Shown in pieces: positions 27,990 through 33,156 of a stretch of DNA of 43,900 nucleotides. Numbering within the stretch: position 1 is the stretch's first letter; each line of letters starts with the position of its first letter. This DNA is from Opitutaceae bacterium. Its GTDB lineage: Bacteria > Verrucomicrobiota > Verrucomicrobiia > Opitutales > Opitutaceae. The stretch spans positions 1 through 43,900 of the forward strand of contig JAHCLN010000011.1 in the NCBI GenBank assembly GCA_026125215.1. The letters are read 5' to 3'. The position numbers and the translations under genes are program-made. Below the pieces are notes generated by a model. That model had not been told where the DNA came from. It did no database searches and was given only the letters and a program-made list of their open reading frames with translations.

Positions 27990-28928
27990 TCAGGTGAAGA
28001 AATAGCGCACGAGATGGAAAAAGACGGGCGCCGCGAAGCACAGCGAATCCATCCGGTCCAGCATGCCGCCGTGGCCCTCGATCATGCTGCCAAAGTCCTT
28101 TACACCACGGTCGCGCTTGATGGCGGACATGACCAACCCGCCGAAGAAACCCATGAGCGTGATGATCAGCGCGAGCACGGCGGCCTGCCAGGGGTTGAAC
28201 GGCGTGGCCCACCAGAGGGCGGCGCCGACCGCCGTGGCGGAGGCCGCCCCGCCGACAAAGCCCTCCAGGGTTTTGTTCGGACTTAGCGTCGGGGCGATTT
28301 TGCGCCGGCCGAGGAGTTTGCCCCAGACGTATTGCAGCACGTCGCTGAGCTGCACGACCAGCACGAGGAAAATCAGCAGCCGGGCGTTTGCGCCTTCCGG
28401 ACCGGGAAGCGGCAGCATCAGCAAGGCGGGGGCGTGGCTGAGGAAATAGACGCAGACCATCAGGCCCCACTGGGTCTTGGCCGAACGCTCCAGAAACCGT
28501 TCGCAGTCTCCCGCGGCGGCGCTGCGGATGGGCAGCAGCACGTAGGCATAAACGGGGATCAGGATGGCAAACAGTCCATACCACTGCAGCCACACGATGA
28601 AGTAATGCAGCGGCACGAGCACGAAAAACGCCCAGAACAGGGTGCGGTGGTCGCCCGGCCGGGTCGGCGTCAGCGTGACAAATTCCCGCAGTGCGAGGAA
28701 GGAGATGAGGGCGAACAGAATGACGGAGCCGGTGCCGCCGGTAAGGAGGGCAAGGCTGAAGACCAGCACCATGACCCACCAGGCTTTCACGCGGGCGTCG
28801 AGGTTGAGGATTACGGGACCGGGAGCACCGCCCGCCCGCCGTTTCAGGATGAAGGTGACGAGGCTGGCGATCAGCAGCAGGCCGGCGATGCCGCCCAATA
28901 GCCACAGGGTTTTCTGGTCGGGTATCAT
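27990..28928 (-). CDS. phosphatidate cytidylyltransferase (CdsA/YnbB-like)
   Basis: Makes CDP-diacylglycerol from CTP and phosphatidic acid. About eight TM segments; the CdsA signature is complete at the C-terminus: SAIKRDRGVKDFGSMIEGHG followed by GMLDRMDS (last Asp-rich metal site). 312 aa. It overlaps plsC by 4 nt (ATGA) and precedes the CDP-alcohol transferase by 4 nt. It could be the main CdsA or, given the YnbA-like partner, a second dedicated copy (YnbB-like). Confidence 0.88.
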   Translation of the reverse strand: MIPDQKTLWLLGGIAGLLLIASLVTFILKRRAGGAPGPVILNLDARVKAWWVMVLVFSLALLTGGTGSVILFALISFLALREFVTLTPTRPGDHRTLFWAFFVLVPLHYFIVWLQWYGLFAILIPVYAYVLLPIRSAAAGDCERFLERSAKTQWGLMVCVYFLSHAPALLMLPLPGPEGANARLLIFLVLVVQLSDVLQYVWGKLLGRRKIAPTLSPNKTLEGFVGGAASATAVGAALWWATPFNPWQAAVLALIITLMGFFGGLVMSAIKRDRGVKDFGSMIEGHGGMLDRMDSLCFAAPVFFHLVRYFFT

Positions 28929-29536
28929 GGGAAATGGTTTTGGGCCGCTTCGAGCACGGCCTGCCGGGCACGGCCGAGAAAGAGTTCGCGGCTTTCGCCT
29001 TCGCCCAGCCGGATCGGCGGGCCGGCATGCACCCCGGCGAGCAGCGGCACGGGCAGGAAATCGCCTTTCGGCAGGATGCGGTTCAGATTGTCGAGGTAGA
29101 CGGGCACGAGGGGAATCGTCGGCCGGGCGCGGGCGAGATGATACAAGCCCGCCTTGAATGGTTGAAGGGTGCCGTCCCGGCTGCGGGTGCCTTCAGGAAA
29201 GACGATGAGGGCATCGCCGGCATCCAGGGCGGCGAGCATGGGCTCAAGCGGGTTGTTGGCGACGGTGACGCGTTGGCGCTCGATCAGCACCGCGTGGAAG
29301 ACGCGTCGGGCCAGCCAACGCCGGAGCGGGCCGGCTTCCCAGTAATCCCGGCCGGCCACCGGCCGCACCTTGGCGCGCCATGGTCCGGGCAGCGCGGCCC
29401 AGATGATCGCGAAGTCGAGGTGGCTGGAGTGATTCGCAAACCAGATCGCGGGTCCCGGCGGCAGCGCAGCGGCCGGAAGCAGACGTGCACCGCAGACGGC
29501 GCGGAGACAACCGGCGAGAAGATCGGCGGCGGACAT
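28925..29536 (-). CDS. 1-acyl-glycerol-3-phosphate acyltransferase (PlsC family)
   Basis: Acyltransferase that adds the second acyl chain to make phosphatidic acid. The catalytic HX4D motif is NHSSHLD (~residue 33-39) and the acceptor-binding block is IVFPEGTRSRDG (~residues 105-115). About 203 residues, N-terminal hydrophobic segment. I chose ATG 29536; a TTG at 29548 is possible. First gene of the plsC-cdsA-ynbA-like-DedA-like operon, so the operon runs from acylation to headgroup transfer. Confidence 0.88.
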   Translation of the reverse strand: MSAADLLAGCLRAVCGARLLPAAALPPGPAIWFANHSSHLDFAIIWAALPGPWRAKVRPVAGRDYWEAGPLRRWLARRVFHAVLIERQRVTVANNPLEPMLAALDAGDALIVFPEGTRSRDGTLQPFKAGLYHLARARPTIPLVPVYLDNLNRILPKGDFLPVPLLAGVHAGPPIRLGEGESRELFLGRARQAVLEAAQNHFP

Positions 29537-29590
29537 CAAACAAGGCAAGGCGCCGGCCGGGCCGGCCTCAAGGTCAAAGCCGGCCGCCTA

Positions 29591-29625
29591 AAAACAGAGA
29601 ACCCGGGACCTTGCGGTCCCGGGTT
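29591..29625 (-). terminator. strong terminator reading leftwards out of the gene desert
   Basis: Stem of 11 bp (AACCCGGGACC 29600-29610; GGTCCCGGGTT 29615-29625) with a four-base loop; on the minus strand it is followed by CTCTGTTTTT. It ends something transcribed leftwards from 29.63-30.5 kb, where no gene is found. Confidence 0.75.
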
Positions 29626-30523
29626 CAAAGTGGGGGTGGGCGTTCGCCACGCGCTCTTTCCCTTCGGCACACCATTTGGCACTCTCGCTTTCGCGGGTTG
29701 GGTGCTCCCCGACGCTACTCAACGCGGCATGCGCTGATCTCGGTCTCATAGCGGGACCGTCCCGACCGTTTCCGGCTGGGATCTGTTGAGTGAGGCCTCT
29801 TCGCCCGGTTCGGTCACCTCCTGCCGGAGGCGGCTCGCCGGACGGGGTGCAGACACGCCTGCAATCCGTCATATCTCGCGTCGGCACCGTGACCGCAAGG
29901 ACGGCGCCAGCTTGTGGCTGGCCGTTGGCCCTGCGTTACGGGTCTGACCTCTTAACTCTCAGGTTGCGTTCGCTTTGCAGTAGGGTGATGCGGTTTTTCG
30001 CACCGCCCCATTGAGAAGGTTGACGGGCTTTGCCAGGCCCGCTCACTCCCCGCCGCCACGCCTCCCTTGCGCGCCCCGCCTCTTGCGAAGCCGGGCCTTT
30101 TGGCGGGGTTGTCCCGCCGGGATGCGCGACCGCGTTCTGGTCTGCGCAGTAGCAACCATAACCCTCTGGGTAACTGCGTCGGTCCGCGGGTCGAAACTCC
30201 CCGGGGACCTGACTCGGCTCAACCGCGGTTTCTAATCGCGTCTCGCCGCTCAGCTCCTGATTCGTGCTGAACTGGACCGGTCACGACACCGGCCAGAGGA
30301 GCTGGTGATATCTGCCTGCACCACGCGTTGCCACGTGGGAGGGGAGGGCGACACCAGCTGTCGCCGACCTTTCCCCGGTCACCCGGGATTATCCCAGTCG
30401 CGCTCGCCGCGAGCCGTTTCAGGCCGCTGCACTACGACTGTTCTATCAAGGAACGACGCCCAACATGCAGGCCGCCGCACGATTTGGAAGCAGTTGTTCT
30501 GCACAACTTCTGCACCGCGCGGA

Positions 30524-30567
30524 CCGGTGAATAAGTTGGGGATAATTTCATTCACCGGTTATTCACC
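30524..30567. promoter_or_regulatory. cluster of three DnaA-box-like 9-mers with inverted repeat
   Basis: TTATTCACC (minus, 30534-30526), TTATCCCCA (minus, 30544-30536) and TTATTCACC (plus, 30559-30567) each match TTWTNCACA at eight of nine positions within 44 bp. GGTGAAT (30526-30532) is also inverted against two direct ATTCACC copies. It lies 46 nt before hrpB. Could equally be a regulator's operator. Confidence 0.35.
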
Positions 30568-30612
30568 TCCGGCCTTGCCACCCGGCGCGGGAGCCGGACG
30601 CTGGTTCGCTCC

Positions 30613-33156
30613 ATGTCTGCCCGCGATCTGCCCATCTATGAACTGGAGTCCGCCGTTGTCGGCGCCCTGCGCGCGCCGGGCCGGCTGATCGTGCAGGCGC
30701 CGACCGGTTCGGGTAAATCCACGCAGATTCCGCAGATGCTGCTGCGACACGGCTTCCTCGACGGCGGCGAAGTCGTCGTGCTGCAGCCGCGGCGGCTGGC
30801 GGCCCGCCTGCTGGCCAAGCGCGTGGCCGAAGAGGTCGGAACAAAACTGGGCGAGGTGGTGGGTTATCAGATCCGGCTGGAGGCGAAGGTCAGCGCGCGG
30901 ACGCGGATCCGGTTTGTGACCGAGGGCATCCTGCTCCGGCAGATGTCGTTCGACGCGACCCTGCGCGGGGTGAACGTGCTGGTGTTCGACGAATTTCATG
31001 AACGCCATCTCTACGGCGACATCTCCCTGGCCCGCGCGCTGCAGATCCAGCGGACCAGCCGGCCCGACCTGAAGATCGTCGTGATGTCGGCGACGCTCGA
31101 TACCGCCGTGCTGCGGGATTATCTGGCGCCCTGCGAAGTGCTGACCTCCCAGGGACGGACCTTTCCGGTGCGCATCGAATATCTTCCGAAGAGCGTCAAC
31201 TTTGAGGCCGACCCCGTGTGGAGCGTGGCGGCGCGCGAATGCGAGCGCATCGCGGCGGCAACCACGGGCGACCTGCTCGTGTTTATGCCCGGTGCCTATG
31301 AGATCAGCCGCACCGTGCAGGAAGTGCAGGGGTCGCACGCCCTGCGCGGGTTTGCGTGCTTCCCGCTGCACGGCGAACTGCCGCCCGATCAACAGGACCG
31401 GGCCGTGGCCCGCTACGACACGCGCAAGATCATCGTCTCGACCAATGTGGCCGAAACCTCGCTGACCATCGACGGCGTGACCGTCGTCGTGGACTGCGGG
31501 CTGGCGCGGGTCGCCCGTTTCGACCCGCACCGCGGCATCAACACGCTGCTGATCGAGAAGATTTCCGCGGCCAGCGCCGACCAGCGCGCCGGTCGGGCCG
31601 GTCGCACCGCACCGGGCGTCTGCGTGCGCCTCTGGACGGAGCGGGAGCACACCCAGCGCGCACTGCAGGAACTGCCCGAGGTGAAGCGGCTCGATCTGGC
31701 GGAAGTGGTGCTGACGCTCAAAGCCAGCGGCATCGACGACGTGGCAAACTTCCCCTGGCTGGAGAAACCGGATCCGCGCGGGTTGGAGCGGGCGGAGACG
31801 CTGCTGGCGGATTTGGGCGCCTTGGGTGGGCCGGCCAGGGCGATCACCGATCTCGGCCGGCGGATGCTCAAGTTTCCCGTGCACCCGCGCTATGCCCGCA
31901 TGTTCCTGGCCGCCCAGGAAAGCGGCTGCGTGCGCTCTGTCGCACTGATGGCCGCGCTTACCCAAGGCAGAAATTTTCTTCTGCGCGGCGTGGATCGGCG
32001 CACCGAAGAGGCGCGGACGGATTTGTTCGGCGAAGAACATGAGAGCGACTTCTTCCTGCTCATGCGGGCGTGGCGCTATGCGGACAAGGCGAACTATGCC
32101 ATGGACGCCTGCCGCCGGCTGGGGATTCACGCGCAGGGCGCCCGGCAGGTCGGGCCGCTCTTCGAGCAGTTTCTGGCGATCGCGGAAAAGGAAGGCCTCG
32201 ACATCGCGGAGCGCCGCGTGGACGGCGGGGCCGTGCGCAAGTGCGTGCTGGCCGGGTTTTCGGACCAACTGGCCCGGCGGCTGGATCGCGGCACGTTGCG
32301 CTGCGACCTCGTGCACGGACGGCGCGGCCTGCTGGCGCGGGAGAGCTGCATCCAGCAGGCGGGCTTGCTCGTCGCCGCCGAGATCAGCGAGATCGAGGGT
32401 CGCGGCGGCGAGGTGAACGTGCTGCTTTCCCTGGCCACCGCCGTCGAGGAAGCGTGGCTGAAGGAGATTTTCCCGGACGATTACCGCGAGACGCGCGGGG
32501 TGGTTTACGACGAGGCCATGAAGCGCGTCGTCTCCCGCCGCGAGCGCCGTTTCCGCGACCTCGTGCTGGAGGCCAAGGCGGGCAGCGACGAGGCGCCGCT
32601 CAACGAGGCGGCGGCGTTGCTGACGCGAGAGGTTCTGGCCGGCCGGATCAAGCTGGAGGCGTGGGACGACACGGTGGAGCAATGGATCATCCGGGTGAAC
32701 CGCCTGGCCGAGTGGTTTCCCGAACTGGAGGTCAATTCGCTGACCGAGGCGGACCGGGCGACGCTCATCGAGCAGATCTGCTACGGCGAAATGAGCGCGC
32801 GCGACGTGAAGGACAAACCGGTCATGCCCGTGCTGCGCGACTGGCTCACGGCCGAGCAACTGGCCGTGATGGACGATTATCTGCCGGAGCGCCTCACCAT
32901 GGCCAACGGCCGGAAAGCCAAGCTGCGCTATGCGAAAGAAGGCCCGCCGATCCTCAGCGCACGCATCCAGGAACTCTACGGCGTGAACTCGACCTTTTCG
33001 CTCGGCCACGGCCGCGTGCCGGTCCGGATCGAGGTGCTGGCCCCCAATCACCGACCGATCCAGGTCACGGATGATCTGTCGAATTTCTGGCGCGAGCAGT
33101 ATCCGAAGATCAAAACCGAGCTTTCCCGCCGCTACCCCCGGCACGAATGGCGGTAG
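30613..33156 (+). CDS. hrpB: ATP-dependent RNA helicase HrpB
   Basis: DEAH-box-type helicase of 847 residues. Walker A APTGSGKSTQIP (~residue 30-41), motif Ia LQPRRLAAR, motif II DEFHERH (~125), motif III SAT, motif IV/V STNVAETSLTIDGV and motif VI QRAGRAGR (~330) are intact. Motif II is DEFH, not the DEAH of most relatives, and HrpB proteins often carry such variants. The C-terminal ~130 residues resemble the HrpB-specific domain. Cellular role poorly known; unlike HrpA it is not implicated in mRNA processing. Confidence 0.92.
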   Translation: MSARDLPIYELESAVVGALRAPGRLIVQAPTGSGKSTQIPQMLLRHGFLDGGEVVVLQPRRLAARLLAKRVAEEVGTKLGEVVGYQIRLEAKVSARTRIRFVTEGILLRQMSFDATLRGVNVLVFDEFHERHLYGDISLARALQIQRTSRPDLKIVVMSATLDTAVLRDYLAPCEVLTSQGRTFPVRIEYLPKSVNFEADPVWSVAARECERIAAATTGDLLVFMPGAYEISRTVQEVQGSHALRGFACFPLHGELPPDQQDRAVARYDTRKIIVSTNVAETSLTIDGVTVVVDCGLARVARFDPHRGINTLLIEKISAASADQRAGRAGRTAPGVCVRLWTEREHTQRALQELPEVKRLDLAEVVLTLKASGIDDVANFPWLEKPDPRGLERAETLLADLGALGGPARAITDLGRRMLKFPVHPRYARMFLAAQESGCVRSVALMAALTQGRNFLLRGVDRRTEEARTDLFGEEHESDFFLLMRAWRYADKANYAMDACRRLGIHAQGARQVGPLFEQFLAIAEKEGLDIAERRVDGGAVRKCVLAGFSDQLARRLDRGTLRCDLVHGRRGLLARESCIQQAGLLVAAEISEIEGRGGEVNVLLSLATAVEEAWLKEIFPDDYRETRGVVYDEAMKRVVSRRERRFRDLVLEAKAGSDEAPLNEAAALLTREVLAGRIKLEAWDDTVEQWIIRVNRLAEWFPELEVNSLTEADRATLIEQICYGEMSARDVKDKPVMPVLRDWLTAEQLAVMDDYLPERLTMANGRKAKLRYAKEGPPILSARIQELYGVNSTFSLGHGRVPVRIEVLAPNHRPIQVTDDLSNFWREQYPKIKTELSRRYPRHEWR

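Follow-up and report, generated by a model that had tools for sequence, protein, structure and literature searches.

A MISL RNA gene in an Opitutaceae genome, with a boxA-like leader and DnaA-box-like words upstream

What fills a gene-free gap of 1.06 kb in a stretch of bacterial chromosome? The gap (29549-30612) lies in 43,900 nucleotides from an Opitutaceae bacterium, hereafter the window, whose positions are used throughout. It is bounded on the minus strand by a plsC-like acyltransferase gene of 207 aa (28925-29548; PF01553) and on the plus strand by a divergent neighbor outside the RNA described here, the ATP-dependent helicase gene hrpB (30613-33156; TIGR01970, 619.6 bits). A first-pass annotation, made from the letters alone, had seen no coding sequence and no RNase P or tmRNA core in the gap, and had proposed a large non-coding RNA on the minus strand, either of a known class, as a divergent member, or of a new one, with an Rfam scan and a covariation analysis as checks. 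The absences were borne out: none of five ORFs tested inside or reaching into the gap had a Pfam match, ARAGORN found no tmRNA, and neither RNase P nor tmRNA had an Rfam match in the window. Fold energy set the gap apart from shuffled sequences on both strands (z = -5.4 minus, z = -4.9 plus); because the plus strand also folds well, fold energy alone cannot pick the strand, and the minus strand was chosen on the basis of the Rfam match.

That match was to MISL RNA (RF03079), which cmscan placed on the minus strand at 29639-30394, with RNA position 1 at 30394. The hit covered the full model (1-751 of 751, not truncated) and scored 525.4 bits against a gathering threshold of 274.6. RF03079 was the sole Rfam family reported in the whole window, no other family, including GOLLD, ROOL and OLE, was matched in the gap at E up to 1, and 159 of 174 consensus pairs were canonical in the window's RNA. 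Judged by these matches, the gap is almost certainly the gene of a MISL RNA. The RNA had seemed unidentified when read without tools, so a class of structured RNA of this size that no catalogue contains had to be considered, but a full-length match at about twice the gathering score leaves that reading practically no probability. Of the earlier proposal, then, the non-coding RNA, its strand and the known class stand and the new class falls; on this comparison, the window's RNA is an ordinary new member of a catalogued family and not particularly divergent.

The Rfam pairs, along with four pseudoknots detected in this analysis, were mapped onto 62 relatives that MAFFT had aligned from sequence alone. 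Among these the structure covaried strongly: 90.5% of cells were paired (81.5% shuffled), double changes occurred at 131 pairs (80.9 shuffled), and double-change cells numbered 1196 (364.2 shuffled). When partners were slid as a control, pairing fell to 37-42%. The comparisons show a core of ~750 nt with about 30 predicted helices, mostly covarying, and five pseudoknots. Two of the covarying helices (30343-30369 and 30277-30292) correspond to stems that the first-pass annotation had named. Complementary ends that it had also noted (TGGGCGT/ACGCCCA) are not conserved and are attributed to chance, since the upstream copy precedes the stretch where conservation begins, and L060, a congeneric locus with an RNA 98.8% identical to the window's, does not have it. 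A purpose-built all-pairs covariation scan with a tree-based null proved so strict that 8 of 169 known pairs reached significance, and little can be read into its silence on other pairs; it returned nine significant pairs, eight of them Rfam pairs and the ninth, the only one outside the Rfam structure, in the pseudoknot PK1.

The five pseudoknots all lie on the minus strand. PK1 joins GGUUGC (30157-30152) to GCAACC (29967-29962), with 99.7% of cells paired, and PK2 joins 30286-30282 to 30266-30262, paired in 80 of 80 sequences; three of its pairs had 11, 21, and 23 double changes. PK3 (CUGCAA, 29980-29975, with UUGCAG, 29864-29859) was paired in 97.6% of cells, and PK4 (CGCUAU, 29753-29748, with GUAGCG, 29718-29713) in 100%, with double changes at two pairs. 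Finally, PK5 brings the first hairpin loop (30357-30353) to a distant single strand (30141-30137), both in the family and at distant loci. Taken alone, the projected pseudoknots were 98.7% paired and had 88 double-change cells against 21.4 shuffled, with slid versions 26-47% paired; they were picked from largely the same sequences as those tested, which makes the distant loci important as an external check. In most of those loci PK1 showed compensatory changes (GAAGAC/GUCUUC, GAAUGC/GCAUUC, AUCGAU/AUCGAU, and AAUUGC/GCAAUU), and it failed, as aligned, in L114 and L115. PK3 was compensated as CUGUAAAG/CUUUACAG and CUGAGA/UCUCAG, and PK4 by a change of UA to GC, while PK5, nearly invariant in the family (CUGGU/ACCAG), became CGGAU/AUCCG and CUGAC/GUCAG. 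The consensus line of cmscan is nested and cannot display pseudoknots; the five covarying pseudoknots, together with the leader and terminator described below, are additions to that line, and the family's authors may have drawn them.

For the gene boundaries, 81 loci were read side by side, and conservation was found to run on beyond the Rfam 5′ end. Outside the model, a 6-bp helix, P0, pairs CAGUCG (30440-30435) with CGACUG (30400-30395) on the minus strand; across 72 relatives each pair was formed in 61 to 72, and four of the six pairs showed double changes, in up to 14 sequences. At the other end lies an intrinsic terminator on the minus strand (29590-29626), with a 12-bp stem, a 4-nt loop, and a U-rich tail. 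A hairpin and U-rich tail follow MISL at nearly all loci read, and the leftward terminator reported from the sequence alone was confirmed at 29626-29599 plus the U-run. A consensus promoter scan found none in the window; a weak candidate -10 element, CATGTT (30462-30467, minus strand), was placed with the help of relatives whose promoters are easier to recognize. From the conserved leader and the terminator that follows, we infer a transcript of ~865 nt, roughly from 30455 to 29590, in keeping with the up to ~850 nt first estimated. MISL very probably forms a separate transcription unit, read leftwards between these ends.

The leader opens with a boxA-like element, GTTCCTTGATAGAAC (30440-30454, minus strand; core GTTCCTTGATA, 30454-30444), of conserved position and putative role. 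It was in the same place in the family and at most loci phylum-wide, with the forms GTTCTTTGACAGAAC, GATCTTTGACAGAA, GTTCATTGAAAGAAC, or TTGCTCTTTGACAGAACAAG in other lineages. A strict regular expression recovered the element at the expected distance in 73 of 110 GTDB loci, and most of the remaining loci that were read had a variant, GTTCATTGAAAGAAC or GTTCTTTGATGGAAC, that it does not admit. Moreover, a 15-nt leader pattern was present as a single copy per genome in nine MISL-positive genomes, and three MISL-negative genomes had none. The boxA consensus of gammaproteobacteria is GYTCTTTAANA (PMC5725501), from which GTTCCTTGATA in Opitutaceae and GTTCATTGAAA in Verrucomicrobiales both deviate; relative to this consensus, the window has two changes (T5C and A8G) and several lineages one (A8G), T5 differing among lineages. 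The comparison was with published elements, the rRNA operons of these genomes being masked as N. The GTTC and GAAC arms of the element could instead pair as a short hairpin. A small-loop hairpin stands directly before the element in the GATC and GCTC groups, in L173 a hairpin is followed by TTGCTCTTTGACA, and in Escherichia coli rrn boxB precedes boxA (PMC6614801). We regard boxA-type antitermination on the MISL leader as reasonably likely.

We considered whether the RNA belongs to its neighbors. At most family loci MISL lies between a divergent hrpB, typically 180-350 nt away, and a downstream typA on the same strand, sometimes with genes intervening before typA, as in the window. From this arrangement one could imagine that MISL controls a neighbor in cis, as a leader or attenuator of the gene downstream (here plsC) or of hrpB: plsC is on the same strand, with 91 nt to the start of its homology, and hrpB is divergent at many loci. 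However, MISL is followed by its own terminator at nearly all loci, the downstream gene varies, and both second copies and other lineages adjoin unrelated genes, making a role in cis highly improbable. As functional partners, hrpB and typA were likewise rejected: hrpB was present in 150 of 150 family genomes and MISL in 52% of them; the two genes were adjacent without MISL at four loci with ~150-170 nt between them and at three with an unrelated insert of ~1.1 kb; and outside the family the neighbors differ, with lineages that have neither hrpB nor typA beside MISL. In two MISL-free genomes (L136 and L143), whose genus has MISL in another species, an alpha/beta-hydrolase-like gene, identified by eye, fills the hrpB-typA gap. 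No partner gene at displaced copies recurred beyond a few loci. Read across these genomes, the hrpB/typA adjacency is old Opitutaceae synteny and not a partnership with MISL.

MISL is single-copy in the window's genome. In the Opitutaceae sample it exceeded the threshold in 78 of 150 genomes (52%), usually once, with two full-length copies in five. The phylum-wide sample yielded matches at E up to 0.001 in 24 of 289 genomes, 16 of these from the same family. A core-pattern scan of named genomes found at least 119 stretches; among the matches listed all titles were from Verrucomicrobiota, including Opitutaceae, Verrucomicrobiales, Puniceicoccaceae, Pedosphaera, Akkermansia-labelled bins, and Haloferula rosea. 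As sampled here, MISL is scattered through Verrucomicrobiota.

Such patchiness, together with the five genomes that hold a second copy, would suit a mobile element, whether an intron, a retron, or a GOLLD- or ROOL-like phage RNA. Yet the hrpB-MISL-typA order is mostly fixed within the family, no conserved ORF is associated with the RNA, and the same core pattern had a single match among 2.9 million viral contigs, so that we give mobility very little credence. The lone viral match (L272) is an IMG/VR contig of 2347 nt that could be a mis-binned bacterial fragment. An Rfam search at E up to 1 found no degenerate MISL upstream of hrpB in 16 MISL-negative genomes. The second copies (L054, L087, L088, L106, and L122) lie away from hrpB-typA, keep the leader and terminator, lack the DnaA-box array described next, and mostly score below the primary copy of the same genome. 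Two of them, L054 and L088, from different genera, have in common a downstream DksA/TraR-like gene, identified by eye (L054:1375-2041 and L088:1304-2213, relative to the MISL start), which suggests one old duplication.

Upstream of the leader are four DnaA-box-like words, TTCTGCACA (30497-30505, plus), TTATTCACC (30526-30534, minus), TTATCCCCA (30537-30545, minus), and TTATTCACC again (30559-30567, plus), each one mismatch off TTATNCACA. This array (30497-30567) is the only cluster of at least three within 100 nt in the 43.9-kb window, and 400 kb of the relative G003 had none. Across 200 nt at each of 76 primary loci we counted 33 exact words and, with one mismatch allowed, 200. For 200 permuted control words the one-mismatch counts had a median of 6 and did not exceed 72, and no control word had more than 6 exact occurrences. 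Random flanks had 0.026 words per 200 nt, MISL-free hrpB upstream regions two words in 20 x 400 nt, and the five second copies none, though RNA and leader are kept there. The words also occur in other orders and classes, with few or none at some loci there. In distant lineages the exact TTATTCACA occurs, and the position of the array is fixed relative to the MISL start. TTATTCACA also lies ~60 nt ahead of dnaA in the majority of genomes with that stretch examined (before the dnaA start in L273, L275, L276, L278, L282, L283, L284, and L286), where it probably reflects dnaA autoregulation; this fits a DnaA site in the lineage.

Given these patterns, we lean slightly toward an influence of DnaA on the MISL promoter. 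The words might instead serve another regulator with a DnaA-like site, or hrpB, and the commonest word here, TTATTCACC, indeed differs from the E. coli consensus. Against another regulator are the exact TTATTCACA in distant lineages and the same word upstream of dnaA; ownership by hrpB sits poorly with its MISL-free upstream regions, which are almost devoid of words, and with the persistence of the words in lineages without hrpB nearby. We consider this possibility unlikely. Less probable still is that the array is a chromosome origin or a DnaA titration site with MISL merely beside it. The array is strong and conserved in position, and titration-type sites of the datA/DARS kind are present in E. 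coli, but most complete genomes have MISL a long way from dnaA, second copies occur without the array, and the array keeps its place relative to the MISL start. An origin was not supported in the complete genome G003, where GC skew has the same sign for ~90 kb on either side of MISL and changes sign elsewhere.

Taking up again the reading in which DnaA acts on MISL itself, transcription would start near 30455 and run leftwards for ~865 nt; NusB/S10 would bind at the boxA-like element and so hold polymerase on a long untranslated RNA, as for rRNA; and DnaA would modulate the promoter, tying MISL output to replication or growth. The product would act in trans as a folded molecule, for which the RNA's own terminator and the lack of both a conserved ORF and a conserved partner gene argue; we hold a trans-acting folded RNA to be very likely. 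A MISL gene whose RNA would act in trans, with a possibly DnaA-influenced promoter and putative Nus antitermination, is likely the best overall explanation of these sequence comparisons. The stronger proposal, a replication-linked, rRNA-like RNA with a DnaA-controlled promoter and Nus antitermination, used in trans throughout Verrucomicrobiota, is put forward tentatively, at somewhat less than even chances. As a working guess, the RNA may be structural or form an RNP, in amounts that track growth or replication.

MISL is already catalogued and has been named in the literature as an example of chemical mapping, and finding one more member is in itself ordinary. What makes it easier to test is the evidence gathered across the family on its leader, its promoter, and its tertiary pairing: gene boundaries, the set of five pseudoknots, and two candidate control signals offer handles on the transcript, the promoter, and the factors DnaA and NusB. 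If DnaA control holds, a large bacterial RNA would be connected to chromosome replication, and if the combined reading holds, MISL synthesis would follow growth or the cell cycle.

Among known systems, the window agrees with MISL RF03079 in full-length match, strand, structure, and phylum distribution, and nothing excludes membership. OLE has a conserved protein partner gene, whereas none was found for MISL. OLE, GOLLD and ROOL are large RNAs of bacteria that contain many pseudoknots and whose functions are poorly understood (PMC12286853). MISL is similarly large and rich in pseudoknots, but has no match to those families and is chromosomal, single-copy as a rule, and not phage-linked. In Legionella the boxA of the CRISPR leader is GTTCTTTAAAA (PMC7862264). 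Compared with the boxA of rRNA and CRISPR leaders, the MISL element has G for A8 and, in Opitutaceae, usually C for T5; as in those leaders, an 11-nt GTTCTTTGANA-type element opens a long untranslated RNA, and some MISL lineages have a hairpin-then-boxA order similar to the boxB-boxA order of E. coli rrn (PMC6614801).
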